64,000 bases of DNA from Phorcus lineatus (Eukaryota; Mollusca; Gastropoda; Trochida; Trochidae). The notes beneath the pieces are model-generated. The model was not told the DNA's origin. It did no database searches and was given only the letters and a program-made list of their open reading frames with translations. Below, one piece after another: positions 5,042-29,951 of the stretch (position 1 is the first letter of the stretch; the number at the start of each line of letters is the position of its first letter). Position numbers and translations under genes: made by a program. Location: assembly GCA_921293015.1 (NCBI GenBank), contig OV121081.1:30569158-30633157 (forward strand), written 5' to 3'.

Positions 5042-6301
5042 TTAACATCTGCCACTGCTCGTGTATGTGTCCACAAGTTGCTGGTACAGATACTGCACAC
5101 TCTTCACCTCTCGCCTCAGTTCCTGGAGCCTTGCATCCTGAATCAGTGGTGAACCATCTTCTTTCCTCTGCTCTTCTGTTCCCTCCTGAACCTCCTCCAA
5201 TTGCACAACACTTGGTCCCGTAGTGAAGTCTTTTGTGTATCTTCTTGCCTGCCCTCCCTCATCAACCTTGTCAATTTGTCCACCTAGTTTATTCACATCT
5301 CCCTCTGCCTTCTTTGATGTGAAGTGATTCAATTGTTCTCTGAGACGTTGAAATGATGCCTCTATCTTGGCCGTGATGTTGTAAATAATTGCATCCTTCT
5401 TAATCGAAGAGTTTAGAGCAGTCTCACTAGTCATGGGTTCATCATCAGTCACTGGATCGTCGTAACCGATCTTCTCCACAAGCTCTGCTATCTTCAGTCT
5501 GGTATAACTGTTGAGTACCTCTAACGTATTGCTGATCTGTTTTATGTTATCTGTCATGACATGAGTGTGTTCCACCATTGCCTCAGAATTTAGCTTAAGA
5601 TGTTTTATTTCCTCAGTGTTGTTCTTCAGCACAGCTGCGACATCATCCTCTTTCTTCAGTCTTTCCTCGTACCTTGCTCTGTTTACTCCCAGACTAGTGT
5701 ACAGTGTTTTCTTCAAGTCCTCAAAACTCTGAAAAAGGTTGCTAATCCCAGTAGTGTTTGTGTTCACTGCTGCGTCTGCAACTTGCTTCTTCACATCAAG
5801 CAGTTCTTGTAGATATAGGGCAAGACGTCCATGATTTTGATGAAGCTGATCATTAACCGATGATTCCAAATTCGTGAGGGAATTGAAGAACGTTTGGACT
5901 GATGCTGTCATCAAGTCCAGACGGGTGTCAGTTTTCGCCGTCATGTTTTCCATAACGTCAGTTAGCTCTTGTACAATTGCTTTAAGTTCGTCTTCTTTCA
6001 CTGCATTTGATGTCAAATCATCTAACTTGTCCTTGAGGTTCTTTTGTTGATCTTCAACAGATGCAACCATTCTTGCCAAACTGGGGATGGCATGGATAGC
6101 AGTTTTACTTACATCAGTCTCACTCTCCTTTGTCAAATCGGATACGGACTTTTCCAACTGCAGGAGTCGGTCCTCGAGGGATTTGGAAGTATGGAGACAG
6201 CCTTCTTGTGGCTTTGGTACTGTAAACTCGTACCTACAGGTTTCCTGAGCTAATGCCGATGCCATAGTCAGAATGATGCTAGTAATCACGAGGAGGAGCA
6301 T
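5042..6301 (-). CDS. Gene 1: secreted coiled-coil protein with angiopoietin-type N-terminal Cys motif
   Basis: Intronless ORF of 419 residues. Residues 1-19 (MLLLVITSIILTMASALAQ) form a signal peptide. Residues 22-35 are CRYEFTVPKPQEGC, the cysteine motif shared with the two other genes here. Residues about 40-330 are heptad-rich coiled coil (for example LEDRLLQLEKSVSDL and IKHLKLNSEAMVEH), with five N-glycosylation sequons (NMT, NTT, NNT, NSS, NIT). The C-terminal 90 residues are charged and end in a single Cys (419). With Cys22 and Cys35 this gives three cysteines for intra- or inter-chain disulfides. The Pro/Thr tail of genes 2 and 3 is absent. The start is fixed by the signal peptide and by a good TATA box 76 bp upstream. 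The function is unknown. An extracellular multimer is the inference; angiopoietins use a like-spaced motif plus coil for clustering. Confidence 0.88.
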   Translation of the reverse strand: MLLLVITSIILTMASALAQETCRYEFTVPKPQEGCLHTSKSLEDRLLQLEKSVSDLTKESETDVSKTAIHAIPSLARMVASVEDQQKNLKDKLDDLTSNAVKEDELKAIVQELTDVMENMTAKTDTRLDLMTASVQTFFNSLTNLESSVNDQLHQNHGRLALYLQELLDVKKQVADAAVNTNTTGISNLFQSFEDLKKTLYTSLGVNRARYEERLKKEDDVAAVLKNNTEEIKHLKLNSEAMVEHTHVMTDNIKQISNTLEVLNSYTRLKIAELVEKIGYDDPVTDDEPMTSETALNSSIKKDAIIYNITAKIEASFQRLREQLNHFTSKKAEGDVNKLGGQIDKVDEGGQARRYTKDFTTGPSVVQLEEVQEGTEEQRKEDGSPLIQDARLQELRREVKSVQYLYQQLVDTYTSSGRC

Positions 6302-6376
6302 CTTTGCTGGAGTGAGAAGGATCTTTTATTGTGCTTTCCCGTCTTGTAGGAGAGGCAGATACAAGAATACGTCTCA

Positions 6377-6384
6377 TATTTATA
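6377..6384 (-). promoter_or_regulatory. TATA box of gene 1
   Basis: TATAAATA on the minus strand, preceded by a GC-rich gcgcgg, sits 76 bp upstream of the gene 1 ATG. It predicts a transcription start near 6350 and a 5' UTR of about 50 nt, with no need for an upstream intron. Confidence 0.62.
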
Positions 6385-7884
6385 TCCGCGCGGTCAAGGT
6401 TATGTTATCATTTGACGTCAGATATCACAATTGTAATCTTTTTGTACGAATCAATTATTTCCTTCCTGTTTGATCTTATCGTATTTTTGACGTCATACCT
6501 GCTTGTGCAAATTGTGTTTCTCTCTTAAAGGTTGAGATTACTTTTTTCACGTCGTACGAAAAGCAAAACAAAGTGAACCTTGAAAGTTCGAATACACTGT
6601 TTGATCATCAACACAGCAGGCAGTCTGCGGGTGTATAGACGTTGTTTTGGGAAATTGACATTTTATTATTTTAAAGAGTTACAGTTTCGTGAAAATAGAC
6701 ATGTTTAGGATTTCGTTATCGAAATGTGATCAGAGCCTGGCGTTGTAGAAATAAAAATTCCTATACAAAATATGAACATCCGTTTAAGATAATAGAATTT
6801 TCAACTGGGTTAGGAAGATCAGGTGTTTCTTTCGATGGTAAGTGGATGTACATTTTAAGCTTCATCAAGCAATAACAGCGAAATTATATAGTATATGCGA
6901 ATTATTATATGTGTATCCGTTAATGAATATCGAATATTATTCAGAAACTCCAGTAAAGCATGAAACACTGTCATTGTGTATATAGTTATTCATTATAAAT
7001 GTTTCTTTATGAAAAAGAAGTTTTAAGCAAGTTTCAGATACATGGTTAGTATGTCTGTAAAAACTTATTATATATAATATTCTGAAATTCCGGTGTCGGA
7101 CATAAAATTATTCTTAGATTTAAGATCACACTATCTACATAAGTACAAGGTTCTCGGGTGAACAAAAACATATTTTCCAATTTTAAAGTACCGATAGTAT
7201 AAGCAAACTGGAATTATTGAGACTTCAATACTCATCCTGCACTTCATCCATTTGTAGCATTATGGATTTTGAATGTAAATATCTAAAGATATATGTACTA
7301 AACATTAAAATATGTATGATAATGTTAAAGTTAGTACACTAATCACTGTCTAATGTTATTGATATATGGCACGGAAACCAACAGTACAGGGTAACGTGGT
7401 ATAATCTAAACAGTAGTAGTGCTACATGTAGTCAATCATGAAAAATTGGTAACATCAAATGTTTACGAGTATGTATTTGATTTGATGTGAAACGGTCTTC
7501 ATGGTTAAAAATGAAATGGCTTTTTTTGTAGAACAGTTACACATAGTTTGTTTGCTGAAAAAAACCACTAAAAGGTAAGTTGGTTGCTTACGCAATATGC
7601 ATGAATATTCTAAGAGTACGTGGTAGTCACCCTCTGTGGTGTTAGCCATGGTTACTGATAGTAATTTCATAATGTTTCGAGAAACTAGCTGCCTTTGTCT
7701 TAAAATCATTGACATTTCATTTTAACATAGTTACAGTTGTGCTTAGAGTGATCAGCGTGCAAGAAGATAGATATGATTCGGGTTTGATAAATGGTTGATG
7801 AATGTTTGAAACTCGGCTTAATACTGTTTGACAAAAATCATCAAGAAACCATCCAACTGACAGCCAATCATCTTCCGTCTTTTA
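6385..7884. other. Intergenic, with a possible plus-strand 5' exon
   Basis: No protein-coding exon is supported. A strong donor (gatg|gtaagtgg at 6838/6839) ends a stretch that starts about 200 bp from the gene 1 promoter. This could be a non-coding first exon of a divergent transcript, but no acceptor partner is identified. Confidence 0.25.
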
Positions 7885-8565
7885 TTTGCAACCAACATCT
7901 CTTCATAATAAAGGAAACTTGAATTATATTGTAGTATCAACATATGTATGTGTAATGATACTATTGAAATGTGTAAACTACCTCGATTTAGCTTCAACAG
8001 TGTCTCTTTATATTAAAGGAAACCTGATTTATATCACGGTATCAACATATATGCATGTGTAGGGATAATATTGAACTGATACTTGATTTAGCTTCAACAG
8101 TGTCTCTTTATAATAAAGGAAACCTGATTTATATCACGGTATCAACATATATGCATGTGTAGGGATAATATTGAACTGATACTTGATTTAGCTTCAACAG
8201 TGTCTCTTTATATAAAGGAAACCTGATTTATATCACGGTATCAACATATATGCATGTGTAGGGATAATATTGAACTGATACTTGATTTAGCTTCAACAGT
8301 GTCTCTTTATATTAAAGGAAACCTGATTTATTTCACGGTGCACGTGTAGGGATAATATTGAAATGTGTAAACTGATACTTGATATAGCTTCAACAGTGTC
8401 TCTTTATATTAAAGGAAACCTGATTTATATCACGGTATCATCATGTCCATGTGTAGAAGTAATATTGAAATATGTAAACAGAAGTTCTTAATAATGAAGT
8501 AAACTTGAATTATATCACGGTATCAACAAATTCACGTGTAGGATTGATGTTGAAATGACTAATCT
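7885..8565 (+). repeat. 100-bp minisatellite, about seven units
   Basis: The string gcttcaacagtgtctcttta begins at 7991, 8091, 8191, 8290 and 8387, so the period is 97-100 bp. More diverged units flank these at about 7885 and 8485. Each unit continues with aaaggaaacctgatttatat, a cacggtatcaacatat block and gtgtagggataatattgaa. A further partial unit lies at 9345-9425, beyond an inserted element. Confidence 0.9.
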
Positions 8566-8573
8566 TATAACTA

Positions 8574-8690
8574 GTGTAGGTAGTAAATAGCAACCTCCGC
8601 AGAGGTTGATATAGAAATGAACGCGCGAGCGGTAGCGAGCGTGTTCATTTCTATATCAACCGAGGGCGGAGGTTGCTATTTGCCTTACAC
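8574..8690. repeat. Long hairpin (foldback) within an inserted element
   Basis: The arm 8585-8600 pairs perfectly with 8666-8681. The inner arm 8604-8622 (ggttgatatagaaatgaac) pairs perfectly with 8643-8661. A looser outer pairing (gtgtagg with ccttacac) extends to 8574 and 8690. The loop is GC-rich (cgcgagcggtagcgagcg). This is typical of a non-autonomous DNA element end. Confidence 0.7.
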
Positions 8691-9344
8691 ATCGTGGTTA
8701 AGAAATGAAATTATTTTATTAAAAAAATAATTAAGTAGTATATAATGACCGGGTGACGAGCGATTATGGCAAACAAATTCAAGAGGGTGTTAGCTCGAGA
8801 TGAGTTTTTTTTGCTATAACGCGAGGCTAAATATTTGATTCTAATGATTAGAAATTGACATAACCTTACACCTATATATTTTCATTTATATATACATATA
8901 GTATCATATACATTTATATATATACCAGGGGGAAAACAGTACAGACATGACACAACAAAATGAACAGTCCCACCCAGGGATACTCGTTAGCTCAAATGGT
9001 AAAGGCGTTACTCGCCAGCAGAGAGGTCCCGTGTTCGAATCCCACTTTCGCTAATGTAGAGTCTTATATACTGAATTTGTAAAACTATCAAAATTTTACA
9101 AGTCTAATCGTTTGTGTAGGTTGAACATCTCATAACACCCACCTGCGTATGGTACATAGCCTTCAACTAAAAACAAAGGACATTATAACCGATTTGAATG
9201 ATATGTGATAGTGCCCTAGGGTGATATGGAGAAACAACCGATGATTACGTCATAAGAGGTTGATATGAGAATGAACCAATGTTAAAACAATGGGAACATA
9301 TCACACCTAGGTGTGTAACTTCAAGTAGCATCTCATAGGGCAGC
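8691..9344. mobile_element. Inserted sequence splitting the 100-bp minisatellite
   Basis: The minisatellite stops at about 8565 and resumes with a partial unit at 9345. The intervening DNA starts with the hairpin and near its right end repeats gaggttgatatgagaatgaac (9258-9278), almost the hairpin arm sequence in direct orientation. A palindrome cacacctaggtgtg lies at 9302-9315. This suggests insertion of a non-autonomous transposon. The family is not identified. Confidence 0.4.
8978..9055 (+). repeat. tRNA-derived SINE head (Ala-like)
   Basis: Box A (ttagctcaaatggt, 8987-9000) and box B (gtgttcgaatccc, 9031-9043) are well preserved, with ctcgccagca where an Ala(AGC) anticodon arm would be. 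The acceptor and anticodon stems do not pair fully, so I call a SINE or tRNA pseudogene. Confidence 0.5.
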
Positions 9345-9429
9345 CTGAATTATATATGTTTTAACATACGCATGTGTAGGGTTAGTATTGAAACGTGTAA
9401 ACTAATACTTGGTTTCAGCAGTCAGCCCA

Positions 9430-10810
9430 GTCGTAAGCCTCTCCTCTCTTTATTCTCACGGGTCGAAGAGAATCATCTCATACCAGTGTAACCATGGACC
9501 CTATAATATTGTGGTATGTTTCTCTATCATTGTGACAACTTACCCCGCCCGGTCTAAACCAACGGATTTATCAGTTGATGTGAAAAAGTTTCAGTGTAAA
9601 CTTAGCATATCTCATTCTCTAACTGATGAAATACAATACATCTGATGCCTTAAAACAAGACTACGACATTATTAACTGATGGAAATTAATTGATTTTTAT
9701 CAGCTTTAAGTCAATATTTCCCGTCTTGCCCAAAAAGAATCTCTGAAATCGAAGCGATATCTATCATTCCCAAGTAGGAACAGCTGAAAAATGTGTTAAA
9801 AATGTCATGAATTCAATTCCGGTAAGTTTGATAACGTTAACGTCACAATCTAAGGAATGGCAAGGAAAATTCTCTATGACGGTCGTCCTCGGTTCATACT
9901 TCGCGTATAACTAACAATTAAAAACCTTTCGTTCTGTATCCCTTTTATTTCACCATGTTTTGAAGGGAGAACAGAACATTTAATCATCGCATAAATCTTG
10001 ATATTTGGAGGATTTGGATAATTATTTTTCATTTTTTTTGCCACTCGTTTTTTTTTCAAAATGTCCGGTTAAAGTATTGTTTGAAGTTTTATTTTCAACC
10101 TATACGTATCGCGGGCATCTACCTTTGAGTTATATTTGAAATAGCATAGTTTCTTACGAGATTGGTGACCTTTTCATAATAAGATGTATTGTACCGGGTT
10201 TGAAAATGCCATGTTTTATAATTTGCTCTTTGGTTCAATAATAGAAAAGTATGCATATGTAAATTACTTTAATGTAAACAAATCATTTGAATCAAAACAA
10301 CCTCCTGGTTTTCAGCCTTAGTTGTGTTTGATGAATCAAGTGCGTTACAAAAGAAAAGATACTTTTCGAGAAAACTTGTTTTCAACTTTACCAGTTCTGA
10401 ACTTCGGTTCTTTTAAAATACATTAGCACAGGTTGTTTAAGAAATAAGTGACCTGATTAAATCTTCACTGACAGGTCAATAAGGCTCTCTTTTATCTTCG
10501 CTTTAGGTATTTATGTATGAGACAATTCTAAAATATATTCCAGAATTCAAGAAACTATTTGCTAGTTTTAATTGATATAATTTATCTAGTTATCAACTGA
10601 TTAGAATATAACATATTCATGTGCAATATTGATAGGGGAAATTAATTATATGCTGTTTGAGTCATATTTGCCAATTTTGATCACTGGTGTTTGTAAATCA
10701 AGAAGATTTGACTGTTGGTTACAATTTTGATGTGAACTCCTTCCAATCGGTTCAGTATAGTGACATGAATGGGTTTTGGAAAATTGAAAGCCGGACAATA
10801 CACCACGGCT
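9430..10810. other. Intergenic, no supported gene
   Basis: A strong donor (attccg|gtaagttt near 9822) follows an open stretch at about 9755-9821, but no acceptor and frame fit it. Nothing else is recognised. Confidence 0.3.
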
Positions 10811-10814
10811 AGTG

Positions 10815-10930
10815 TAATAATAATAATAATAATAATGAGTATTTATAAAGCGCTATATCCATACACAAGGTGAATGCTCAAAGCGCATTGGTTTTGAAAT
10901 TTGTACGCCCATTGGTTTTGAAATTTTTAA
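10815..10930 (+). repeat. (AAT)n plus short dispersed repeat
   Basis: A taataataat run is followed by gagtatttataaagcgcta, a string seen next to such microsatellites in many invertebrate dispersed elements. A 16-bp phrase (cattggttttgaaatt) is duplicated at about 10887 and 10911. Confidence 0.45.
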
Positions 10931-11496
10931 AACTACTGAAGGCAGACGGGACTGACGATTTTAAATGTGTCTTTGTAGCAATTATGATTTATGTTTAACT
11001 TAGAAAATGTAACGAATATTTGTCTGTGCTATTTCAGACGCCATTTTCCGTTGTCATCCATTATGTGTGTATTTCATTCTGTAAGATTCTTCTGATAGTC
11101 GTAAGAACTAGATAGTCTGTTTTATTGTTCAAACCAGTTGAAGTGGAGTTTGACAATTTTATTGATTGATATGGCGGTAGATAGTTAACTGTCAACATTT
11201 GTTTAGATTATGTTATATTTTGGCGAATATTATTAAACAAATGTAATGTTTACCATTAATTTGCTTTACGTTTCTAAAATATCCTTTTTATGTTTTGGAA
11301 TATTTATAAATTTATTTTACGATTCATTTTTCTGGAAATTACTCAAATGGTAATAAAAAATAATATCCCTTGAAATAAATTAAAAACATGTTTTTGGAGA
11401 CAAAAATAATTTTTCAATTGAATAGAATCAATTTCCCTAGTATCACTTTATCGTTCAGTCTTAATCATCCTTTAATTATAATATAAAAGCTAAAAA

Positions 11497-13279
11497 ATGT
11501 CAGAAACTATTGAAATGAGTGTCAATTGTTGTGTTTATCCCACCTGTCCAGGTAAGGTAATCTGTTTGAAGTGTCACCTGGACCAGGTGAGATGATAAGC
11601 GTTGGGGGAATGTGGAGTATGTTCAAACGTAATGAACTAATTGCAGGTGTGACTAACAATACCGCTTAACAGGGTTACAGTCCCTCATTAAATAACACTG
11701 ATCGCAGTGTTTTGTTAACGTTTCGCCTATGGAAAACTGACTAAATTACTTTGTTTGTCAAACAGTTTCATTATATTCTTTGACGTGAAAAAGTCGCGAA
11801 ACGGTATTTACAAGAAAAAAATTTCGGAACGTAATTTTTCATTTTGTTTGGTTAATGAATTTTTTAATTAGCATTTTTTAAATAAAGGCTTGACACAAGT
11901 ACATCGCATCGCATGCACAGTATGTGCCCATTGATACACATATATATATATACATGCTAATTACTAATTAGGTAAAACTAACCAAATATACATGACAAAA
12001 TATTGCACTGAAACATACCACTCGTGATTTATATTGTTATTATTGATACGGAATCGGATTCAAATACTCAAACTGAAAACATTCTCTACTTGAAATTCAT
12101 AATAAAAATATATATCCACGTAAAGAAGACAGTCATTGAATCGAATTGAAATAAAAATAAAAATAAAAGTAAGAAGTGAGGTAAAAAGATGTAAATTTAG
12201 ACACAAAAATAAACAAATCATTATTGAAAGATTAAAATTGCTCGATTAATAAACATTTGTACAAAATAATAATAGGTGCTCTTGAACAGAAGTTTAAGAA
12301 TTAATTGACACACATGTTAATTTAAATGATAATTGAATACATTTACAACCTTACGAAAACATGTGGTTCCATTTACAATGTTGATATCAATTTAGAAATT
12401 TTACTTTCACAAAAAAATCTTCGATTTTAGAATAGAATTCTCCTTTGTCACATAAGGAAAATATATAAAGTCAAATTTCAGAATACTAAAATAAAAGTAT
12501 GCATGTGTGCGATTTTTGTTGATTTCGATTTCTTTATTGTAAACTTTCGAACACAATTTTGATCATTTTATTCTCCCCAACCCAAATGAGATATGAGAGA
12601 AAATACAAATCAAGATCAAAGTTCTTTAATTGATCCAATACGGCATCTTCATGCTATGTCATCGACGTAAGTCATGATCAGTCATTGCTGATATATAAGA
12701 TGAAGTTAGATATTTGCATTTTATAAACGAAGTTCATGAAAATAAAATCGATTAATGAGTCTTTTAATAATAATCAAAAGCGCTAATATGGGTAAAATAT
12801 TTCATCACTATTTTCCGTCAATACAGGAACACAGGAATTCCTGGTATCAACATGGGCCATATTGTCTCACTTAGAAGACATTTTTGTAAATCCAGTGTAT
12901 GTTTGGAATGGAGACGTGCCTTCCGATATAAAAGTATGTGTTTCAATAATCCGAACTTTTGATTGTAAACTTAAATCAACCAAGGGTTAGCATTAACATA
13001 AATATTTTTACATCATTAAAGATGATGATGTCATCAATAATTAATTGTAAACTGGTTTTAGTTAATCTATATCTTAAATATTCAAATTTATTTCGAAGTA
13101 TGTTTTTTAACGTGCGGTAAAGAGATAAAATTCATTAGAATTGTATTTTCTAGGTCCAAAACAGAAATGGAATTGTCAAATTTATTCCAATTTGTTCATT
13201 CCGAGAATTGTCAATATTGAAACGATTGATAAAAATGGAGCACCTATTCTTGACAGAGGTCAAAGGGATTGGGACATAA
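11497..13279 (+). CDS. Candidate three-exon small gene (95 codons)
   Basis: Three open segments join in phase through good splice sites. Exon 1 (11497-11551) starts MSETIEMSVNCC and ends at a strong ccag|gtaagg donor with one nucleotide of a codon. Exon 2 (12827-12933) follows a tacag acceptor, begins with the two missing nucleotides, reads TQEFLVSTWAILSHLEDIF and later VYVWNGDVPSDIK, and ends at a gtatgt donor in phase 0. Exon 3 (13154-13279) follows attttctag, continues VQNRNGIVKFIPICSF and later LKRLIKMEHLF, and stops at taa (13277-13279), overlapped by an aataaa. An in-frame taa precedes the ATG. A tataaaag at 11482-11489 is too close to the first ATG, so the second Met (11515) could be the start. 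The family is not recognised. The model could be a chance assembly of open frames. Confidence 0.32.
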
Positions 13280-13451
13280 TAAACAGTTTCTTAGCCTTTT
13301 CCTTTATATGATTTCACAGCCCAGCAAGATGTACACATATTCATTAAAGCATGTGCTTTTAATATGTATATTATTAATAATCAGAAAAAAATATTGTACA
13401 TGTTTAAGAAGAAAGAAAATATTTCTGTAGCATGACATTTCATTGTATTCA

Positions 13452-13890: not shown

Positions 13891-13904
13891 TATAGGGGTT
13901 GATA

Positions 13905-15982: not shown

Positions 15983-18900
15983 TTAATGGACATTCTTGTT
16001 TTTACTGTTACCGTGACTGTGACCTTTGTTCTCATTAGCACTTGGCAAATGCGGCACTTTCATATTGCCATTGTTGCCTATTTTCTCATTAGCACTTGGC
16101 AGGTGGGGCACTTTCATATTACTACTGTTCCCACCTTTTGATTGATGATCCGCCGGTAGGGTCGGGATGGCAAATTTATGTTGCTGAGAACCACCAAACG
16201 CACTTGGAGCCTTCACAGAAGTAGTTTGTTTGTGCATCACTGGTAAAGTCGGGACTGCAAGGTTTGGTGTTTGAGAACCACCTAATGCACTTGGTGCCTT
16301 CACTGAAGTGGTTGGTTGATGAGCCGGCTGTAAAGTTGGGATTATCGGTTTCTGAGAACCACCAAACGCACTTGGAGCCTTCACTGGAGGTGTTGGTTTA
16401 TGCATCACTGGTAAAGTCGGGACTGCAAGGTTTGGTGTTTGAGAACCACCTAATGCACTTGGTGCCTTCACTGAAGTGGTTGGTTGATGAGCCGGCTGTA
16501 AAGTTGGGATTACCGGTTTCTGAGAACCACCAAAGGCAACTGGAGCCTTCACTGGAGGTGTTGGTTTATGCATCACTGGTAAAGTCGGGACAGCAAGGTT
16601 TGGTGTTTGAGAACCACCTAATGCACTTGGTGCCTTCACTGAAGTGGTTGGTTGATGAGCCGGCTGTAAAGTTGGGATTACCGGTTTCTGAGAACCACCA
16701 AAGGCAACTGGAGCCTTCACTGGAGGTGTTGGTTTATGCATCGCTGGTAAAGTCGGGACAGCAAGGTTTGGTGTTTGAGAACCACCTAATGCAGTCGGTG
16801 CCTTCACTGAAGTGGTTGGTTGATGAGCCGGCTGTAAAGTTGGGATTGCCGGTTTCTGAGAACCTCCAAACGCACTTGGAGCCTTCACAGAAGTAGTTTG
16901 TTTGTGCATCACTGGTAAAGTCGGGACAGCAAGGTTTGATGTTTGAGAACCACCTAATGCACTTGGTGCCTTCACTGAAGTGGTTGGTTGATGAGCCGGC
17001 TGTAAAGTTGGGATTGCCGGTTTCTGAGAACCACCAAAGGCAACTGGAGCCTTCACTGGAGGTGTAGGTTTATGCATCACTGGTAAAGTCGGGACAGCAA
17101 GGTTTGATGTTTGAGAACCACCTAATGCACTTGGTGCCTTCACTGAAGTGGTTGGTTGATGAGCCGGCTGTAAAGTTGGGATTGCCGGTTTCTGAGAACC
17201 ACCAAAGGCAACTGGAGCCTTCACTGGAGGTGTTGGTTTATGCATCACTGGTAAAGTCGGGACTGCAAGGTTTGGTGTTTGAGAACCACCTAATGCACTC
17301 GGTGCCTTCACTGAAGTGGTTGGTTGATGAGCCGGCTGTAAAGTTGGGATTGCCGGTTTCTGAGAACCACCAAAGGCAACTGGAGCCTTCACTGGAGGTG
17401 TTGGTTTATGCATCACTGATAAAGTTGGGACTGCAAGGCTTGGTGTTTGAGAACCACCTAATGCACCTGGTGCCTTCACTGAAGTGGTTGGTTGATGAGC
17501 CGGCTGTAAAGTTGGGATTGCCGGTTTCTGAGAACCACCAAAGGCAACTGGAGCCTTCACTGGAGGTGTTGGTTTATGCATCACTGGTAAAGTCGGGACA
17601 CCAAGGTTTGGTGTTTGAGAACTACCTAATGCACTCGGTGCCTTCACTGAAGTGGTTGGTTGATGAGCCGGCTGTAAAGTTGGGATTGCCGGTTTCTGAG
17701 AACCACCAAAGGCAACTGGAGCCTTCACTGGAGGTGTTGGTTTATGCATCACTGGTAAAGTCGGGACAGCAAGGTTTGGTGTTTGAGAACTACCTAATGC
17801 ACCTGGTGCCTTCACTGAAGTGGTTGGTTGATGAGCCGGCTGTAAAGTTGGGATTGCCGGTTTCTGAGAACCACCAAAGGCAACTTGAGCCTTCACTGGA
17901 GGTGTAGGTTTATGCATCACTGGTAAAGTCGGGACTACATGGCTTGGTGTTTGAGAACCACCTAACGCACCTGGTGCCTTCACTGAAGTGGTTGGTTGAT
18001 GAGCCGGCTGTAAAGTTGGGATGGCCGGTTTCTGAGAACCACCAAATGCAACTGGAGCCTTCACTGGAGGTGTTGGTTTATGCATCACTGGTAAAGTCGG
18101 GACTGCAAGGTTTGGTGTTTGAGAACCACCTAATGCACTTGGTGCCTTCACTGAAGTGGTTGGTTGATGAGCCGGCTGTAAAGTTGGGATTACCGGTTTC
18201 TGAGAACCACCAAAGGCAACTGGAGCCTTCACTGGAGGTGTTGGTTTATGCATCACTGATAAAGTTGGGACTGCAAGGCTTGGTGTTTGAGAACCACCTA
18301 ATGCACCTGGTGCCTTCACTGAAGTGGTTGGTTGATGAGCCGGCTGTAAAGTTGGGATTGCCGGTTTCTGAGAACCACCAAAGGCAACTGGAGCCTTCAC
18401 TGGAGGTGTTGGTTTATGCATCACTGGTAAAGTCGGGACAGCAAGGTTTGGTGTTTGAGAACTACCTAATGCACCTGGTGCCTTCACTGAAGTGGCTGGT
18501 TGATGAATCGTCGTAACAGTTGGCAAAGCAAGTTTATGCGTTGATGAAACACCAAAAATACTTGGAACCTTTGACGAAATGGTTGGTTTATGAACCGCTG
18601 GTAAGGTAGAGGTAGTAACTTTATGCGTTGAAGAACCACGCAAAGTACTTTGAGCCTTCGCAGAAGTGGTTGGTTTGTGAGCTGGCATTAATGTTGTAGG
18701 AGCAGATGGAGTAGTTGGTGAAACAGACACTGTTGTTTTGCCTGTTGGGGCCATTACTGTGTTCGTTGATGCTGATGATGGCGTAACAATTAATTTCAAT
18801 CGTTGAACCTCTTGTACCAACAAACCTAGAGAAACTTTAATGTCACTGAGGCCAATGATATTTCCGGCAACACTGTTGTTTGTCAGACTTTTGAGCACTT

Positions 18901-20053
18901 TGATTTCTTTGGAGTCAAAGGTTGTCGTAAGGTTATGGACGAGGCCCTGCAGTTCCTTGATGCGTTGGGTGTATCGTGCTGTTTCGGTGACGATTGTCTG
19001 GCTCTGATTCATCAGGACGCTGAGCTGTTCCGTCATTGCCTTAGCATGGAGTCCATCCTTCAGCTGCAGGCCCTCCAGGTTAATCTGCTTTTTGGATACC
19101 TTGTCTATGTTTGAGCTGAGGTACGTTTCCTTATTAGAGAGTGAGTCGACCACAAGCTGAAGATTCTTTATGTTCCCGTCGTTGATGTGAAGGTGAGTTT
19201 TTAACGACGTACCAACCCCATCAACTCGCGATTCGATAGCTTTCAGATGAGCAAAGAAAGCTCTTGATGACAAGTCCTGGTTACTAATCTTCTTATTATT
19301 TTCAAGCAGGTTCCTTTTTAGTTTGCCCACTTCCCCCTGAATGTCGGATATAGCCATGTCGAGATGATCCTTAGCTTTGGCGGATTTCTCAAGTTTCTGT
19401 AAGCGAGCCTCAAAAGTCCCCATGGCAACATTTGGCATCCCTGACGTATCGCTGTGGTTGATAGCAGCTTGGAGTAGGTTTTCTAGGTTGAGTTCCGTAT
19501 TTGACACTCGTACCATAGCATCAAGAAAGTCCTTGTAATGTCGAGCCATTCTTTCTTCCACAGCTGAAAAATGCCTCCTTGTGTCTGATGACTCTTGACT
19601 CACAGAGTTGCTTAAGTTGATCACGTTGTTTTGAACATTGTGCAAAGCGTGCATTAGAAATTCCTTCGCCTGGTCAATTTTTTGCAGGGCCTCGGAGTGA
19701 TCTCCCTTGGAGCCACCATTGCGGGTGTTGCCAGGCGTCAAAAACCTTTGAACCTCTATCTGTAGGTCACTTACTGCTCTAGCATTGTCATTCATATTCT
19801 TCCGAAGCTGTGATATCTGGTCCTGGAATATACCGTTCTTGGTCGAAACAAGTTCACGGTTGCTCTCCAACTCTTTCATGATGGCTGACAGTTTTGCATC
19901 AGTCTCCTGTGAAGACGAGCTGCAAGAGGCCATGTTTGAAGGGACGTTAAACTCAAATCTGCATTGTCCCTGGTTATTGTTGATCTTGGCTGCCGTTGTG
20001 ACCCCAAAGACCAAAATGAAGGACAGGAGGACATTGAATCTTGGCCTCTTCAT
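15983..20053 (-). CDS. Gene 2: secreted coiled-coil protein with giant Pro/Thr repeat tail
   Basis: Intronless ORF of 1356 residues. Residues 1-22 are a signal peptide. CRFEFNVPSNMASC occupies residues 31-44, the cysteine motif shared with genes 1 and 3. Residues about 45-420 are heptad-rich coiled coil. A segment FLMHALHNVQNNVINLS matches SFHQALHNMENKVFNVS in gene 3, which supports common descent. From about 424 the chain is Pro/Thr/Ser-rich. Residues about 517-1303 hold fourteen 56-residue repeats, each two half-units (KPTPPVKAPVAFGGSQ... and QPTTSVKAPSALGGSQ...) ending VPTLPVMH or IPTLQPAH. The tail ends with two copies of NMKVPHLPSANE and a His/Lys/Asn-rich end. Acidic residues are almost absent from the repeats, so the tail is strongly basic with many potential O-glycosylation sites. 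A structural extracellular role is inferred. Confidence 0.9.
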   Translation of the reverse strand: MKRPRFNVLLSFILVFGVTTAAKINNNQGQCRFEFNVPSNMASCSSSSQETDAKLSAIMKELESNRELVSTKNGIFQDQISQLRKNMNDNARAVSDLQIEVQRFLTPGNTRNGGSKGDHSEALQKIDQAKEFLMHALHNVQNNVINLSNSVSQESSDTRRHFSAVEERMARHYKDFLDAMVRVSNTELNLENLLQAAINHSDTSGMPNVAMGTFEARLQKLEKSAKAKDHLDMAISDIQGEVGKLKRNLLENNKKISNQDLSSRAFFAHLKAIESRVDGVGTSLKTHLHINDGNIKNLQLVVDSLSNKETYLSSNIDKVSKKQINLEGLQLKDGLHAKAMTEQLSVLMNQSQTIVTETARYTQRIKELQGLVHNLTTTFDSKEIKVLKSLTNNSVAGNIIGLSDIKVSLGLLVQEVQRLKLIVTPSSASTNTVMAPTGKTTVSVSPTTPSAPTTLMPAHKPTTSAKAQSTLRGSSTHKVTTSTLPAVHKPTISSKVPSIFGVSSTHKLALPTVTTIHQPATSVKAPGALGSSQTPNLAVPTLPVMHKPTPPVKAPVAFGGSQKPAIPTLQPAHQPTTSVKAPGALGGSQTPSLAVPTLSVMHKPTPPVKAPVAFGGSQKPVIPTLQPAHQPTTSVKAPSALGGSQTPNLAVPTLPVMHKPTPPVKAPVAFGGSQKPAIPTLQPAHQPTTSVKAPGALGGSQTPSHVVPTLPVMHKPTPPVKAQVAFGGSQKPAIPTLQPAHQPTTSVKAPGALGSSQTPNLAVPTLPVMHKPTPPVKAPVAFGGSQKPAIPTLQPAHQPTTSVKAPSALGSSQTPNLGVPTLPVMHKPTPPVKAPVAFGGSQKPAIPTLQPAHQPTTSVKAPGALGGSQTPSLAVPTLSVMHKPTPPVKAPVAFGGSQKPAIPTLQPAHQPTTSVKAPSALGGSQTPNLAVPTLPVMHKPTPPVKAPVAFGGSQKPAIPTLQPAHQPTTSVKAPSALGGSQTSNLAVPTLPVMHKPTPPVKAPVAFGGSQKPAIPTLQPAHQPTTSVKAPSALGGSQTSNLAVPTLPVMHKQTTSVKAPSAFGGSQKPAIPTLQPAHQPTTSVKAPTALGGSQTPNLAVPTLPAMHKPTPPVKAPVAFGGSQKPVIPTLQPAHQPTTSVKAPSALGGSQTPNLAVPTLPVMHKPTPPVKAPVAFGGSQKPVIPTLQPAHQPTTSVKAPSALGGSQTPNLAVPTLPVMHKPTPPVKAPSAFGGSQKPIIPTLQPAHQPTTSVKAPSALGGSQTPNLAVPTLPVMHKQTTSVKAPSAFGGSQQHKFAIPTLPADHQSKGGNSSNMKVPHLPSANEKIGNNGNMKVPHLPSANENKGHSHGNSKNKNVH
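16145..18505 (-). repeat. 168-bp coding tandem repeat of gene 2, 14 units
   Basis: The phrase tgcatcactg recurs at exact 168-bp steps (for example 16401 and 16569). Units differ by a few substitutions (Pro/Ser, Gly/Ser, Val/Ala, Ile/Val positions). One unit and the last have a second-type half (QTTSVKAPSAF) in place of PTPPVKAPVAF, as expected from unequal exchange between half-units. The period is a multiple of three, so the reading frame survives changes in copy number. Confidence 0.95.
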
Positions 20054-20851: not shown

Positions 20852-20883
<32 letters not shown>

Positions 20884-22870: not shown

Positions 22871-25565
22871 GTATTTTTAATGTTATTCCTGTATCTATGC
22901 ATGTATTATTTCTTGTCTCGAAGCAATTGGTACCCTAAATATACCATTACCTTGTGTCAATACCTGTTTCCTTCCACAAAAAAAAGTCCTTTGCAGAAAT
23001 ACTCAAACACCACATTACACATTCACTTCCTCTAATGTGTTTTATAATGTCAACTCTTTAAACTTTATCCAACAAATTTCAAATATCAATTACAAGGTAT
23101 CCCGATAAGAATTCAAATATTGATAGAGGCAATGTAAATCTGCCACATGCCATGGTGAAAAGTTCAGTAAAAATTCACTGTGACAGCTCGACAACATAAG
23201 CCGTGTCTTCAACATTAATCTGCAAGTTAAGATAACCACATTACTTTTATGAGCGAGTTGTTATATGGTATAAAATACCTAATGCAAAAAAATGTATAAA
23301 GAGGGATTTGAGGTTATCAAACCCATTTTCTTAAATTGATTTTCCCACGTTCAATGACGTCATAAAGTTATCAGTTGTATGCTTTGATCGATTAAGGATA
23401 TACATTTACTAGCAAAAATGTTCCGTGTTTCTTAAATTTCAATTAAACTTTCAGTGTTGTTAACTTTCCTAATTGAACTGTCACCGCCATTCTAAAAGGT
23501 TATATTGTATGTATGCATGGTTTGCAATTAAAGTTGTTCATGTTTTCCCACATTTCTTGTAAACTTAACTAGTTTTCATATACATATTGCAAACAGGCGA
23601 TAAAGGCAATGCTTGTTTGAAAAATTTACCAAAAAATGTCATTTTTGTTTTATAAACCTTACATTTAGGATGTTATCTTTTTGGTTTCCAAACTAAATAT
23701 GTCATTCAGTCAAACATAATGCAAATTTATTAATCTTTTTTTAAAATAATTATAGAAAAGACATACATTTTTTTTCATTTCCAAAATTTATTACTTTTTC
23801 ATGACATCAATAAACTTATTAGTCAGACTATTCATCAACTACATTTTAATATAAAATATCATATTTCGCATTTGATAACGAGAACAAAATACGCATTAGA
23901 AATTCTATCTCCTAAGCGTAAAATGATTTTAAAAATGATCAAAATTGTCATTTTGACTTTAAAGATGCAAATAAAGAGATAAAAGTAACGAAATTTACTT
24001 TTTCGAATTTCTACTATTTTCCTGGTGTATCGAAAGACCCTACACTTATGTTAACAGCATGAAACAAATGATACAAACATTCAGTCAATTTCAGTGAAAA
24101 GCTAACATTGAGCTTGTAAAATCTATGTTCCTCGTACCGATTCAAATTCTTCAAAGGTATTAAGAAGTTGTTGTGAAGCAGGACAAGGTTATGGGAGAAA
24201 CATTTATTTATTTATTTCTCGCAACGTTTCTGGGCTACTGCTTGCCCCTTCTTCAGGTGGACAATGACCTAAGTTGTTTGTACGGTATATTAAAATATTT
24301 CATCCCGATTTGTAAATTATGTTAATTGATTAAGTTTAGATATGTTTTGTTATATGATACCTTCTGAATAGATTATGAACAACTCATTCAAGGAAATTCC
24401 TTTGATTTCACATTTTTCTTGCGAAAATATCTCATTTTCTATAAGTTCCAATGAAAGATGGGATGACATCAACTGTAGCAAGTAAGTATTATCTTCAGAC
24501 GACATGGATAGTATCATTTCAATGATGACTTGAAGCGTCATTAACACGTCTTTTCAACACTACAGGTAATGTCGAGTGAAGTATTTTTTTGAAATATACA
24601 TTTACTGCAAGTGCGACCTTTTTTCACATTTTTACCTTTGTATAAATATACACACAGATATATGTGAATAAGTGATATATATGTATATGATATCCTTATT
24701 CATCTCTAATGTTAAATTGTAACATGAACTGCGTTGAAAAGGTAATATTCTCATATAGACACTGTCAGAGTCAACCAATAAATTCTCATTCTTGAACAAT
24801 TTATTATCATGATTATTAAAAGTAAAAATTATGTTAAATATGATTTAGAAATGTGCGAAAATTTATCTATTCATTTACGTCTCGCAGTATTTGGTGTTTT
24901 CTTTCTTTCTTTATTTTTGTTTTACACAGCTTGTTGCCTTCAAATGCTATTTCTAAAATGTTAAATGTTACTTGCTTAAAGTTACTTAAAGAAATGCTTC
25001 ATTCCACAGATCTGGTTTTTGATATTTATTGAGTTAATTTGTTTATGTCAAAAATTGAAATATACAACCCCTAAATCATTGTTATACCATTTGTTTCATT
25101 TGTTTATTTCGCCGCCACTTATCGGTCTAATTCGTGGTTTGCAATAATATTACATCCATGTTCATATGCTGCTTGCAATCTTATTATGACAATCTGCAGT
25201 GGGTTGTTAAATTTTACATTACCGATCCAGTTTCAGAACTGTGTACATTTACTTTTTCATTGATTTAAATAATCATTCAAAAAGAACTATTGTATTTTTT
25301 TTTCCTAAAATGCTAATGGAAAATGATGTATTTGTTATTTTAAGTACTTTCAACCATTCTCGCAAATGCATTTATATGAAAACTTCCTCTTATTATATAG
25401 TTAACATCTTGATATAGAAAACAAGTGATTTATATATGTTCAATTCAATAACGCATATGTTTTAATCGCAAGTAATGATACTGAAGGGGAAACCTAACCA
25501 TAGAGTTTGCGTAATTCATAATTTACAAAATTGTATAATTATTTTCGAGTTTTTGTAATAAAACT
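22871..25565. other. AT-rich stretch with a hammerhead-like motif
   Basis: No gene is supported. The only notable item is the minus-strand motif at 24221-24260, listed separately. Confidence 0.35.
24221..24260 (-). ncRNA. Hammerhead-like core, probable Penelope-like element remnant
   Basis: On the minus strand: cctgaagaaggggc, a loop, gccca, then gaaacgttgcgag. CTGAAGA fits the hammerhead CUGANGA core, gggc/gccc forms a short stem II, and GAAAC follows. Such cores are known in the pseudo-LTRs of Penelope-like retroelements. Stem I and the cleavage site are not identified, so activity is doubtful. Confidence 0.35.
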
Positions 25566-26170
25566 TACTTTATCCATCACAGTCCGACGCACGATTGACT
25601 AATACCATTTGCAATCTAACCTCGTGCAACAATGCAACTTTCGACATGACATTTTGTGAACATGTTGTTGTAATTTCTTTGCTCTCCGGAGAAATTTCAG
25701 GAGTTGTCATACCAAGAGGAACAGAAGTTGTCATACTAACAGTACTTGCGGAGTTGTTTACAACTCCTACAAACAAAATCGTGAACACGTCCTGGTAATT
25801 TCTTTGCTCTCTTGAGAAATTTTAGTTATCATACCAAAGGAACAGAAGTTGTCATACTAACAGTACTTGAGGCGTTTTCCTATCAGAAATTCTTTAAGAG
25901 TTATCATATCAACAGTAATATAGAAGTTGTCACACAAACAGTATTTAAGGAGCTGTTATTCCAACAGTACTTGAAGAGTTGTCCTACAAATAGTACTTAA
26001 AGAGTTGTCATAAAAACAGTACTTTTGGACTGGACGAGTCCTCACACCAACTGGACTGCAGCAGCGGTCAAAAAAACTGGACTGGACGAGTTGCCATGCC
26101 AACTGGTCTGCAGTAGTGGTAAAAACAAGTGGACTTGAAATTGTTATACGAAATGGATTTGAGGAATTGA
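25566..26170 (-). pseudogene. Decayed Thr/Ser-rich repeat, possible relic of a mucin-like gene
   Basis: The plus strand repeats gaagttgtcatactaacagt/acttgaggagttg with a loose period near 30 bp. A second repeat of about 65 bp (ggactggacgag...actggactgcagcagcggtc) follows at 26028-26150. On the minus strand the best-preserved part (25570-25788) reads STVSMTTSVPLGMTTPEISP and ends in a stop, while the rest is interrupted. It lies between genes 2 and 3 on their strand. It could also be a plain minisatellite. No signal peptide or cysteine motif was found upstream. Confidence 0.28.
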
Positions 26171-27239
26171 ATGAGTCTCTGCAAGAGGAATTTTGTGTTT
26201 CATCTAGATTCTCTTATGAAATAAAAGCCATAGCAGCTCTGTGAATAGAGCCGAAAAATGATCACTAGCACACCTTTAGATAACTGTTTACATGGCTATC
26301 CATTGTATTACCACAACAAATCTAATCTTACTATTCAACTAGACAACTCATGTATTGAATTTATCTTCTCCAAATAAAACCATATTTCGATGTATCAGGT
26401 ATATGTAATAAAATGTAATATGGTATTTACTGTGGAATGCAACTGTTATTTCTGTAACCTGTAGCTGTGTATTGAAGTCTGAATGAGATATTGCCTGTGT
26501 ACAACCGTGTGTGCTTTAAGAGAGTGGCGAACCTTGAAAAGATGTCCGAGGCATATTCTTTGTTTATTTTCAAATGAAAGTCTAAACGTAAGTCTATACA
26601 TGACCTAAACGTTCAAAAGCGTAAGTTTTACTATCATTTGTTTTCCACTGTGTAGACAATATCTGAATTCATTATTTTTGCTAAGGTTATCATAAAAGGT
26701 GAAAAAATAAACTTTTGTAGTCATTTTAATCCCATTCCATTCTTTTAGGTATTAGGCATTCTTTCTGCTATTGCAGACAGTAAACGGCCGATACGGCTCA
26801 TTAATTTACCATATCTAAAGTATATATAATCAAAGCTTTAACCAGTTCAAGTGGTGGCTGAAAACGACAGAACGTTACATCCTTTAAATCGAAACAGCAT
26901 GAATTTAAAGTCCTGGTCTAAATTTTAAAAGTTCTCGCTGCTTTTACTTTGTTGCAATAGATTATACAATTATACAATACATGTGAATAGAAGATAATCT
27001 CTTACAGAGAATCGATACATACGTGTTTTTAAATTGACCGCATTATCACGTTTTAGAGAAATATCACTTCGTCGATACTCATACCCAAAATCTAACTAAT
27101 AAGGTGGGTCTATATATAACTATATAACAAACTTTCATCATCTTATTAGATTTTTATAAATATTGGCTACCTCTGGAAAAATCCGAAAGAAGTCAATGAA
27201 TACGTACGTACAATGAATCACTATTGATCCTCTCTTCTG
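26171..27239. other. Gene-free AT-rich stretch
   Basis: No exon or repeat recognised. Confidence 0.35.
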
Positions 27240-27610
27240 AATGACATTCTGTTTGCTTTAGCACATGATAGTGGGAGTTAGCAAGGGCACGCAAAAATGT
27301 GAACGGGTGGAAGAACCAGGGGATGACGTGTAGACAGTTTCTATTGTTCAACTGATCATCGACTTGGAGGAAGAGGGAAGCGTCGATATATCAGACAGCA
27401 TTGGTCGTGATAGATAGGCCTTCAAGCATTGTGGCTGATTGAAATAAGATCTCAGGCTGACGTATTCGAATTCATTGATAAAGGATTTGCATGAAAAATT
27501 AAATAACCAGTCAGATGCTGTCATCATAATCGGGACGTATCTAGTAAATTGTGCAATTGATAATGCTATTGGACACAAGAATACCCCACCTGAAGTACTC
27601 AACAAAAATT
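27240..27610 (+). pseudogene. Possible decayed coding fragment
   Basis: One plus-strand frame reads VSKGTQKCERVEEPGDDV, then VSIVQLIIDLEEEGSVDISD, then NNQSDAVIIIGTYLVNCAID, separated by stops. Composition is protein-like and GC is higher than in the surroundings. Faint similarity to the region after the catalytic loop of tyrosine phosphatases crossed my mind but is not secure. An 85-codon minus ORF over the same DNA (27348-27605) has no support of its own. Confidence 0.2.
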
Positions 27611-28247
27611 ATAACTTATATCAATTTTGATTATTATTTTGTTTAAATTTGTAAAGGACCAATTGAAATTTGATGTCTTACGTTTTCTTGTTACTGGTTC
27701 ATTAGTTTTGTAAAAAAAGGGATTAAATGAGACAGTTCATCTTACACATCACAATTATCTCTTATCATTATCACAAAGGTTAAGATACTGTATACGTGTT
27801 TGGTTAAGATACAAACCGTCGATGCAATACGTTGTAATGTTCACAACAAAATAACATTATTAGATAAGTTTAATAAAGTCTATGACAAAATGAAATAAAT
27901 ATCACAATGACAGATATTCATTGCTGAGATACTGTATGATCTATAATCATAATCGCCACTTATCAATACTCACTGCGAAAATAATACAAAAAGACGAACA
28001 CACTTCAGTTTTTAATCCAACCGAAAAAATGCACATACAATAAAGGTTAAGAAGCGTGAGGGCAGAGACGAATCATAGATACATTCTTAAGGCTTATCAA
28101 ACTGTCAAAACATTATTATAGTTCAGTCACCCATCAGTTGACTTGTTTTGACGGGCCTTTTTTTGTTGATTTCCGCACAAATACATAACATTTCGATAAA
28201 TATTTGATCTATGTCATGTCTGTATCGTCCCTTGGAAATACACTTCA
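27611..28247. other. 3' flank of gene 3
   Basis: No gene. It contains the candidate poly(A) signal of gene 3. Confidence 0.4.
28011..28016 (-). terminator. Candidate poly(A) signal of gene 3 (ATTAAA variant)
   Basis: ATTAAA on the minus strand, 232 nt past the stop. No AATAAA lies nearer. Confidence 0.3.
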
Positions 28248-29951
28248 CTACTTCTTGTTGTTCCCTGGCAAGGGGGGAATCTTAAAGGAGGGAGACAGCG
28301 TCGGAATTTTGATCATTACAGGTCCCAGATTTGGTGATTTGGGAGGTGGTGTTGGAACCTTGAACGGCGTCTTAGTTGTTTCAGCAGTTGGCGCTTTTAG
28401 AGTTGGGACCATGATTGGATTGGTTTTAAGAGAAGGTACCTTGATAGTTGGCACCTTGACCGGCTTGGGTGTGGTTTTCAGTTGTGGAACCTTAAATGGT
28501 TTTGCGGTTGTCTGCATGGGAGGTGGTTTTACCGTTGGGGAGTCAGTAGGGTGAGGAGGCATCGTGCTCGGCTGGGTTGGTTGAGGTGTTACTGGAGGCG
28601 ATTTTGTTGTTGATGACGTCGCAGGATGTTGTTGTGGGTGTGGAGCATGCTGGAGCCCGTTCACAATAGCATTTAGTGAGTGAATCTCGGTCTCGACCTG
28701 TTTGAGCTGGGCTTGGGTAACTGTACTCAGCACGCCTGTGTTCTGAAGCGCTTTTAGGGCATCCTTCATCTTCTGTAGTTGTGAAGGGTTAATGTTGTTA
28801 GATATTGTGGTCAGATCGTCTGCAAGGTGTGTGATGTCCGTCGACTGGTTGGCAAGCTGGTTCATTATGCTGCTGACACTATTTGTCAACAGTTCTATGC
28901 GAACTTTTAGATCATTAATGCCAGAGGCCCCTTCAAGACTGTGGACATCGGCAGTCATCGCTTTGGTGGCGACTTTCGAAAGTTGAGATTTTATGTCTTT
29001 AGTGTCGCTCTTTACGGATGTCATGTCGGCTTCAAGGCTCTTGATCTTTGGCACATCATTGTTCTTAAAGTCGTTTACATCCAAAGTCAGTTTTTCGATT
29101 TTCTTTTCAGCTGACAACACTCTAGATAAAGAAACATTGGCTTCGAAGCCAATATTATTGAGATGATGGCTTTGGTTGTTCACTTTCAGGGAGAGGTCGT
29201 TGGTCTTAGACAGCAGGGAAGAAAACTGTTGTTGTGCCAACTGGTCGTACATCTGAATCTGCTTGTCGAAGTTCGCCAGTCTGTCGCTCACCTGTTTCAA
29301 CATGGCCGGGTTGGTTTGTCCTTGATGAGGCGGCAGAGTTGAACTTCCGGTTGAACCGGATATCATCGTAAGAACATCTTTCAGTTTCTCCTCCAATTTC
29401 CTCGCCTTCTCGTCCTGAATCCTCACCTGCATCTCAATAGCAGCATTCACTTTGGACTGTTCAATAGCATCTTGCTGGAGGTGCAATGACACATTGAACA
29501 CTTTGTTTTCCATATTATGAAGAGCCTGGTGGAAAGAGTCCTTCGTCTTTTCGATCAGGTTATTGATATCGTTACCGTTTTTGCCATTGGGAAGATTTGA
29601 TATTTGGCTTTCAAGCTGGCGTAATTGGCTGTACAAATCGTTCACCTGACTCCCGTAGTTATTGACGTTGTTCTGAACCTTAGAAAGTTGGTCCTGGACC
29701 GTGGTGTGTTGAGACACGTACTGGAGTCGTGTTTTGTCCAGATCGCTCTTCAGCTGGTCAACCTTGTTGTCCAGGGCTGCGTTTCCAGAACTGCACATCC
29801 CGACCTTGTCCGGAACTGTAAACTCGTATCGGCAACCCTTAGCAGCAGGTCCATTTCCGACAGACTTGGACCAGGAAGGCGGTGCCTCCAACTCATCACA
29901 AAAGGCCTGGGCCAACACGATGCAGACTATGATGGCTTTGAAGGCGGCCAT
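28248..29951 (-). CDS. Gene 3: secreted coiled-coil protein with Pro/Thr/Lys tail
   Basis: Intronless ORF of 567 residues. Residues 1-18 (MAAFKAIIVCIVLAQAFC) form a signal peptide. Residues 40-53 are CRYEFTVPDKVGMC, the family cysteine motif. Cys40 and Cys53 are the only cysteines of the mature chain. Residues about 55-430 are a long, heptad-rich coiled coil rich in Gln and Asn. Residues 435-567 are a basic Pro/Thr/Lys tail in which [VI]-P-x-[LI] recurs (KVPQLK, KVPTIK, VPSLK, MVPTLK, KIPTLS, KIPPLP), echoing the VPTLP/IPTLQ of gene 2. The ATG lies in a good context (caacATGG). It is probably closest to gene 2 (shared LHN segment), with a shorter and unamplified tail. The likely role is an extracellular structural or adhesive multimer; this is inference. 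Confidence 0.88.
   Translation of the reverse strand: MAAFKAIIVCIVLAQAFCDELEAPPSWSKSVGNGPAAKGCRYEFTVPDKVGMCSSGNAALDNKVDQLKSDLDKTRLQYVSQHTTVQDQLSKVQNNVNNYGSQVNDLYSQLRQLESQISNLPNGKNGNDINNLIEKTKDSFHQALHNMENKVFNVSLHLQQDAIEQSKVNAAIEMQVRIQDEKARKLEEKLKDVLTMISGSTGSSTLPPHQGQTNPAMLKQVSDRLANFDKQIQMYDQLAQQQFSSLLSKTNDLSLKVNNQSHHLNNIGFEANVSLSRVLSAEKKIEKLTLDVNDFKNNDVPKIKSLEADMTSVKSDTKDIKSQLSKVATKAMTADVHSLEGASGINDLKVRIELLTNSVSSIMNQLANQSTDITHLADDLTTISNNINPSQLQKMKDALKALQNTGVLSTVTQAQLKQVETEIHSLNAIVNGLQHAPHPQQHPATSSTTKSPPVTPQPTQPSTMPPHPTDSPTVKPPPMQTTAKPFKVPQLKTTPKPVKVPTIKVPSLKTNPIMVPTLKAPTAETTKTPFKVPTPPPKSPNLGPVMIKIPTLSPSFKIPPLPGNNKK

Follow-up and report, generated by a model that had tools for sequence, protein, structure and literature searches.

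We take the motif C-x-[FY]-x-F-x-hydrophobic-P-x5-C to define the angiopoietin and angiopoietin-like family, and the peptide IQHGQCAYTFILPEHDGNCR to belong to angiopoietin-1, the latter as the original prediction on this locus had stated. The same peptide is printed in PMC2982831, in a passage that does not name the protein. The short N-terminal domain of angiopoietin-1 is described as superclustering its coil oligomers (PMC4609988). In molluscs, three proteins from the mucus of Cornu aspersum, the CAMPs (Conserved Anterior Mollusk Proteins), are reported to have a common N-terminal region, said to contain oligomerisation domains, and C-termini that differ (PMC10475054); gastropod FREPs are described as mollusc proteins whose coiled coils may serve multimerisation (PMC7588048). 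Among the open-access literature matches listed, no description was found of the family formed by the three genes analysed here.

Three adjacent genes and the parts of their products

The window, that is, the whole 64-kb stretch of DNA analysed, contains three neighbouring genes on a common strand, each a single open reading frame (ORF). The minus-strand ORFs with leader, motif and coiled coil that the original prediction had called are all present:

5042..6301, minus strand: gene 1 (g1), 419 amino acids, with a signal-peptide-like leader, the motif CRYEFTVPKPQEGC, a coiled coil and Cys as the last residue
15983..20053, minus strand: gene 2 (g2), 1356 amino acids, with a leader, the motif CRFEFNVPSNMASC, a coiled coil and a Pro/Thr/Ala tail of 56-residue repeats
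28248..29951, minus strand: gene 3 (g3), 567 amino acids, with a leader, the motif CRYEFTVPDKVGMC, a coiled coil and a Pro/Thr/Lys tail

Judged from the sequence, the three ORFs look like real genes. Each opens with ATG and a leader and closes with its own stop; for comparison, across 20 random 64-kb windows from an order-2 Markov model, the longest stop-to-stop frame averaged 136 residues and never exceeded 163. Inspection by eye places AATAAA polyadenylation signals after the stop of g1 (~4905 and ~4890) and of g2 (~15737), the variant ATTAAA near 28016 after that of g3, and a TATA box of g1 at ~6384. The differences between g2 and g3 at codon positions 1, 2 and 3 (0.56, 0.45 and 0.75) follow the pattern of coding DNA. 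Because every ORF has its own stop and polyadenylation signal, truncation by missed splicing is a needless assumption. The description of the genes as intronless is accordingly plausible from ATG to stop, and introns may lie in the 5′ UTR. tRNA and Rfam scans of the 64-kb window returned nothing.

At the N-terminus, the most hydrophobic 12 residues of g1, g2 and g3 reach a mean Kyte-Doolittle value of 2.7-2.8; by hydropathy alone, all three are thus predicted to have the signal peptide expected of the angiopoietin family. The head comes next:

6197..6238, minus strand: two-cysteine motif of g1, residues 22-35
19922..19963, minus strand: two-cysteine motif of g2, residues 31-44, outside which the protein has no cysteine
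29793..29834, minus strand: two-cysteine motif of g3, residues 40-53

The common form is C-R-[YF]-E-F-x-V-P-x5-C, with the cysteines 13 residues apart. Past the signal region these are the sole cysteines of each gene, save for C419, the final residue of g1. With two to three cysteines per mature chain, the products do not follow the gel-forming mucin (A-B-A) plan of cysteine-rich ends around a Ser/Thr-rich centre. An AlphaFold2 model of g3 residues 20-217 (mean pLDDT 62.9; three sequences) has a disordered head, motif included, followed by two long helices.

The predicted coiled coils are placed as follows:

5045..6196, minus strand: coiled-coil region of g1, residues 36-419, with weak heptads at 334-386 and net charge -17
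18782..19921, minus strand: coiled-coil region of g2, residues 45-424, net charge +3
28650..29792, minus strand: coiled-coil region of g3, residues 54-434, net charge -3

Strong heptad windows cover 73, 77 and 87% of the residues in the g1, g2 and g3 coils, against 11-14% in shuffles, and in none of the genes was coil strength, by our own heptad scoring, matched by any of 200 shuffles. All three coils are about 380 residues long. From the first motif cysteine (C1) to the coil end we count 394, 397 and 397 residues in g1, g2 and g3, a measure picked post hoc on three proteins whose sequences had already been seen; the near-equal coil length could be coincidental. Past this end, the Pro/Thr tail begins in g2 and g3, and g1 terminates in its lone cysteine.

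Such lengths raise the question of whether the three products co-assemble in register as one hetero-oligomer with a disulfide-knotted head, in the manner of the three fibrinogen chains. The genes are neighbours on a common strand, C1-to-coil-end distances agree within 3 residues despite the 19-28% identity of g1 to g2 and g3, and the coils differ in net charge; this difference is mild, however, and the glycine/proline breaks, at ~76-86 and ~160-176 residues from C1 in both g2 and g3, do not align with those of g1. We consider this arrangement unlikely.

The tails of g2 and g3 are basic and rich in Pro/Thr, and g1 has none:

16235..18418, minus strand: tail array of g2, 13 units of 56 residues (168 bp), each made of two related halves of ~28 residues with a (V/I)PTL motif
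28251..28649, minus strand: tail of g3, residues 435-567, with 27% Pro, 16% Thr, 13% Lys, net charge +15 and VPTLK/VPSLK motifs

A first pN/pS calculation on 14 units of the g2 array gave 0.81 in the coding frame, the lowest of six; as the last unit is not homologous, it was redone with 13 units and gave 0.57, again the lowest of six (other frames 0.65-0.85), a small gap that is confounded by array homogenisation.

In Pfam searches none of the three ORFs matched a family above cut-off, and fibrinogen was absent among matches at E up to 1, as the original prediction would have it; its account of chains ending in nothing or in Pro/Thr tails also agrees with the two tailed genes out of three. None of the PF00147 matches listed for the genome lies in the 64-kb window. 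We read the sub-threshold Pfam matches (the best being, for g3, DUF2730 at E 0.0003 and 21.3 bits for a cut-off of 24.9, and MscS_porin at E 0.001; g1, Baculo_PEP_C at E 0.009; g2, Cep57_MT_bd at E 0.037) as coiled-coil noise, together with the PDB matches (best E 0.0084), most of which are to coil proteins, GCN4 fusions among them.

Kinship of the three genes

In a comparison restricted to the three proteins, g2 and g3 find each other by blastp at E 3e-15 and 2e-12, depending on direction; g1 and g3 match at E 2e-5, g1 and g2 at 5e-4 and 0.008. On sequence grounds, g2 and g3 are clearly paralogous, and g1 appears linked to them mainly via its N-terminus. Over the motif and the following 60 residues, the score of every pair was reached by 0 of 500 shuffles, the motif itself supplying much of it. 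Past the motif, 35 of 500 shuffles reached the score of g1-g2 and 10 of 500 that of g1-g3, so that by sequence g1 shares little beyond the N-terminus. Within 264 kb around the trio, tblastn aligns g1 with g3 at E 0.003-0.005 and with g2 at E 0.04-0.9. In the whole genome, g3 as query retrieves g2 and misses g1, and g1 retrieves itself alone.

These last results, with post-motif scores within or near the shuffle range, would also fit a head spread by shuffling onto coils of separate origin, g1 then being no paralog of g2 and g3. Against this stand the motif-plus-60 scores, with the motif's large share in them, and the near-equal coil lengths, common strand and adjacency, which speak for duplication; coils, moreover, diverge fast. 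We find this origin quite improbable. That the genes are instead old, diverged tandem paralogs is a reading that we hold, jointly with that of their products as secreted rod-shaped oligomers, at about even confidence.

Motif and tblastn scans revealed no fourth gene in the 264 kb around the trio. The exact pattern occurs at 3 sites in 958 Mb, all in g1-g3, against 1 site for the reversed control. The proposed tandem expansion thus comes down to three strongly diverged genes. In viral contigs the pattern was matched 102 times, and none of these matches was confirmed as a relative. Separately, the genome holds 16 haemocyanin beta-sandwich matches, in two clusters of eight, which point to a mollusc, as in the original prediction, and probably to a gastropod.

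Resemblance to the angiopoietin N-terminus

The angiopoietin-family motif is present in g1, g2 and g3 with exactly the spacing of the angiopoietin-1 motif quoted in the original prediction. Like angiopoietin-1, the trio have a signal peptide, two cysteines 13 apart, an aromatic residue at position 3, F5, P8 and then a coil; between P8 and C14, their residues are not those of angiopoietin-1. Unlike angiopoietin-1, the trio have no fibrinogen domain, their coils extend over ~380 residues, and two carry Pro/Thr/Lys tails.

How often would such a motif arise by chance? For a human-sized proteome of 11.4 M residues, the strict motif is expected 0.21 times, and matches as good as those of g3, g1 and g2 are expected 1.9, 25 and 66 times, respectively. 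Against the angiopoietin-1 14-mer, g3 scores 38 (P 1.6e-7 per position). Neither the angiopoietin peptide nor the g3 head matched a Pfam family, and a PDB search with the peptide gave no convincing chain, the sole match being unrelated at E 1.2.

Genome-wide, looser patterns gave 129 and 161 sites for 163 and 148 in reversed controls, and were dismissed as evidence of a family because they are about as frequent as these controls. From the first 100 listed per pattern, the 20 + 20 sites most angiopoietin-like by eye were sampled, leaving 247 look-alike places outside (290 minus these 40 and g1-g3). In 40 of 40, the frame runs into a stop no more than 60 residues on (longest 52); a second cysteine lies 3-8 residues past the proline in 9, a leader-like stretch is present in 2, and none has both. 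Consequently, no sampled look-alike (0/40) can be a one-exon gene like g1-g3; some may be heads encoded by short exons. In the 3.4-3.7 kb examined around each of 12 fibrinogen loci (far first exons lying outside), the motif was found in none. Taken together, these counts do not support the suggestion that the extracellular proteins of molluscs reuse an ancient unit.

Head and coil might nonetheless be the angiopoietin N-terminal module by common descent, with the fibrinogen domain lost here. The positions C1, aromatic 3, F5, hydrophobic 7, P8 and C14 are identical, the module sits at the mature N-terminus with the coil next, and the g3 score points the same way; loss of the FReD is on record for ANGPTL8 (PMC5237311), and fibrinogen-domain exons are abundant in the genome (at least 161 matches). 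The chance expectations and the genome-wide counts above weigh against it, as does the comparison of the trio's coils with that of a fibrinogen gene (L009), which stays within coil noise (best E 0.014, one-subject comparison). Homology to angiopoietin, resting on 14 residues, is unproven, and we judge descent possible, if rather improbable. By analogy, the resemblance may reflect a common way of building a head, compatible with descent or convergence.

A possible assembly and its known counterparts

Going by composition alone, the trio are probably secreted, disulfide-headed coiled-coil oligomers that act as structural components of a secreted gel or matrix. The fuller reading, in which the locus encodes secreted rod-shaped oligomers from three tandem paralogs, seems to us evenly poised. 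Chains would associate through the coil, and the cysteine pair of the head would lock them by disulfides or join bundles, by analogy with the superclustering segment of angiopoietin-1; alternatively, the pair may form an intrachain bond. Together with the terminal cysteine of g1, the tails, which are basic and probably flexible and O-glycosylated, could link the rods mutually or to acidic polymers. As a setting, a secreted gel or matrix, such as mucus, egg coat, or shell or cuticle matrix, would be the most likely. It is very doubtful that all of this amounts to one secreted hetero-oligomer with matched coils, an angiopoietin-pattern cysteine head, two basic Pro/Thr brushes and one reactive terminal cysteine, i.e. 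a fibrinogen-like three-chain gel former that lacks fibrinogen domains.

Homology of the head to the N-terminus of angiopoietin would imply that the clustering module predates the protostome-vertebrate split and works without its receptor-binding domain. If the head is convergent, 14 residues with two cysteines make a minimal reusable cap for a secreted coiled coil. The trio are, in either case, candidate structural proteins of a mollusc secretion.

Among known systems, gastropod FREPs carry IgSF and fibrinogen domains, neither of which Pfam found in the three ORFs. The CAMPs, compared by description alone, have fibrinogen-like or lectin domains at their C-termini (PMC10475054), unlike the trio. 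ANGPTL8, shorter than the trio's products and described in mammals only, is like them reported to have no fibrinogen domain (PMC5237311).

Open frames and gene models

Three long open frames lie on the minus strand of the window.

5042-6301, minus strand: g1, frame of 419 aa
15983-20053, minus strand: g2, frame of 1356 aa
28248-29951, minus strand: g3, frame of 567 aa

The longest stop-free frame in 20 simulated windows, generated with an order-2 Markov model built from the window minus g1-g3 and two repeat arrays, is 163 aa; these frames are thus not due to chance. Each starts with an ATG and a hydrophobic leader and ends at its own stop. By eye, AATAAA can be read downstream of g1 and g2, ATTAAA downstream of g3, and a TATA box about 80 bases 5' of the g1 ATG. 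The original prediction described the genes as intronless: given the complete frames and polyadenylation signals, single-exon coding regions are the simplest reading, while the 5' UTRs may still contain introns.

Repeats and antisense frames accompany the three genes.

7898-8469: 5.7 copies of a 100-bp repeat, upstream of g1
16264-18516, plus strand: long frames (210, 267 and 190 aa) that run antisense through the g2 repeat array, explained by a repeat length divisible by three
30638-31844: some 32 tandem copies of a 38-bp repeat, lying just upstream of g3
35640-37745: CTACTG-rich minisatellite of 68/290 bp with 92% matches (2-kb bin GC 0.48, surroundings AT-rich)

Leader, cysteine head, coil and tails

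The proposed succession of leader, C-R-[YF]-E-F-x-V-P-x5-C motif and long coiled coil is borne out in all three proteins. The first cysteine of the motif is residue 22 in g1, 31 in g2 and 40 in g3. By our own heptad scoring, strong windows hold 73, 77 and 87% of post-motif residues, respectively, against 11-14% in composition-matched shuffles, none of which (0/200 for each protein) scored as high; the same scoring finds weak heptads at g1 residues 334-386. An AlphaFold2 model of g3 residues 20-217 has a disordered head and two long helices (pLDDT 62.9, three sequences).

Beyond the motif pair, the mature chains hold no cysteine except the last residue of g1 (window 5045-5047), a possible cross-link point. 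Counted from the first cysteine of the motif, the Pro-rich tail sets in at 394 in g2 and 397 in g3, and g1 ends at 397, on its lone cysteine. This near-equal length from cysteine to coil end is striking given the 19-28% identity of g1 to g2 and g3, but the measure was picked after looking, a set of three proteins allows no statistical test, and the weak heptads of g1 lie within the stretch so measured.

Both tails are basic (+67 in g2, +15 in g3) and have VPTL-type motifs in common. That of g3 is short and made of Pro/Thr/Lys; that of g2 contains 13 copies of a 56-residue (168-bp) unit, itself built from two related halves that are each about 28 residues long. Among these units pN/pS is lowest in the coding frame (0.57 versus 0.65-0.85 in the other five), weakly supporting selection on the protein sequence of the repeat.

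Kinship and occurrence of the motif

Judged by sequence, g2 and g3 are paralogs: they align over 136 residues with E 3e-15 (2e-12 in the reverse direction), and g3 retrieves g2 from the whole genome at E 2e-10. The tie of g1 to both runs through the leader, motif and early coil. With the comparison confined to the three proteins, it matches g3 at E 2e-5 and g2 at 5e-4 or 0.008, depending on direction; when the search space is 264 kb of local DNA plus 12 fibrinogen loci, these E values become 0.003-0.005 (g3) and 0.04-0.9 (g2). Over the motif plus 60 residues every pair outscores 500 of 500 shuffles. Past the motif, the likeness of g1 is at best marginal, its score being equalled by 35/500 shuffles against g2 and 10/500 against g3. 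Queried against the whole genome, g1 finds nothing but itself. These genome-wide searches used g1 and g3; relatives of g2 were covered in the local 264 kb, and a relative of g2 only may exist elsewhere.

The exact family pattern occurs at three sites in 958 Mb, all of them g1-g3 (reversed control, one). A looser valine pattern has 129 sites versus 163 when reversed, and an isoleucine/leucine/methionine pattern 161 versus 148. We read the flanks of 40 such look-alikes, 20 from each list, picked for their likeness to angiopoietin: every frame ends within 60 residues downstream, a suitably spaced second cysteine is present in nine, a leader-like stretch in two, and both in none. A broader regular expression, run on the window, 200 kb of neighbouring DNA and 12 fibrinogen-domain loci with about 1.5 kb of flank each (distant fibrinogen first exons fall outside), returned g1-g3 and two further sites, whose frames are 25 and 39 residues long. 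At one such locus (L009, contig C39 near 21.8 Mb) a 398-aa coiled-coil-like frame lies nearby on the same strand; the motif is absent from the 3.6 kb scanned there.

The same genome holds 16 molluscan haemocyanin beta-sandwich domains on contig C12, in two clusters of eight (7646582-7661095 and 16557773-16572398). They are probably two eight-unit haemocyanin genes, which would fit a gastropod.

Angiopoietin, mucus proteins and a proposed role

The spacing of the head agrees, as originally stated, with the angiopoietin-1 14-mer quoted for comparison. A random 14-mer reaches the score of g3 with probability 1.6e-7 (exact convolution, assumed background composition), and a human-sized proteome would hold about 1.9 chance matches at that score, 25 at that of g1, 66 at that of g2 and 0.2 for the strict pattern. 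Within the N-termini of secreted coil proteins, assumed to number about 300, the expectation falls to 1e-3 (g3), 0.01 (g1) and 0.03 (g2); since this restriction was made after the fact, these lower figures are suggestive only. The angiopoietin peptide has no match in Pfam and a single, unrelated one in the PDB (E 1.2).

In our reading, g1-g3 encode three neighbouring secreted proteins that oligomerise as coiled coils, carry a cysteine head and, in two cases, end in a flexible, basic tail. Such proteins would probably be structural components in a secreted gel or matrix. The head would form inter-chain disulfides, the coil would drive oligomerisation and the tail could serve cross-linking. The CAMPs of mollusc mucus are described as having a common N-terminal region, which includes oligomerisation domains, and differing C-termini (PMC10475054), a principle comparable to that of g1-g3.
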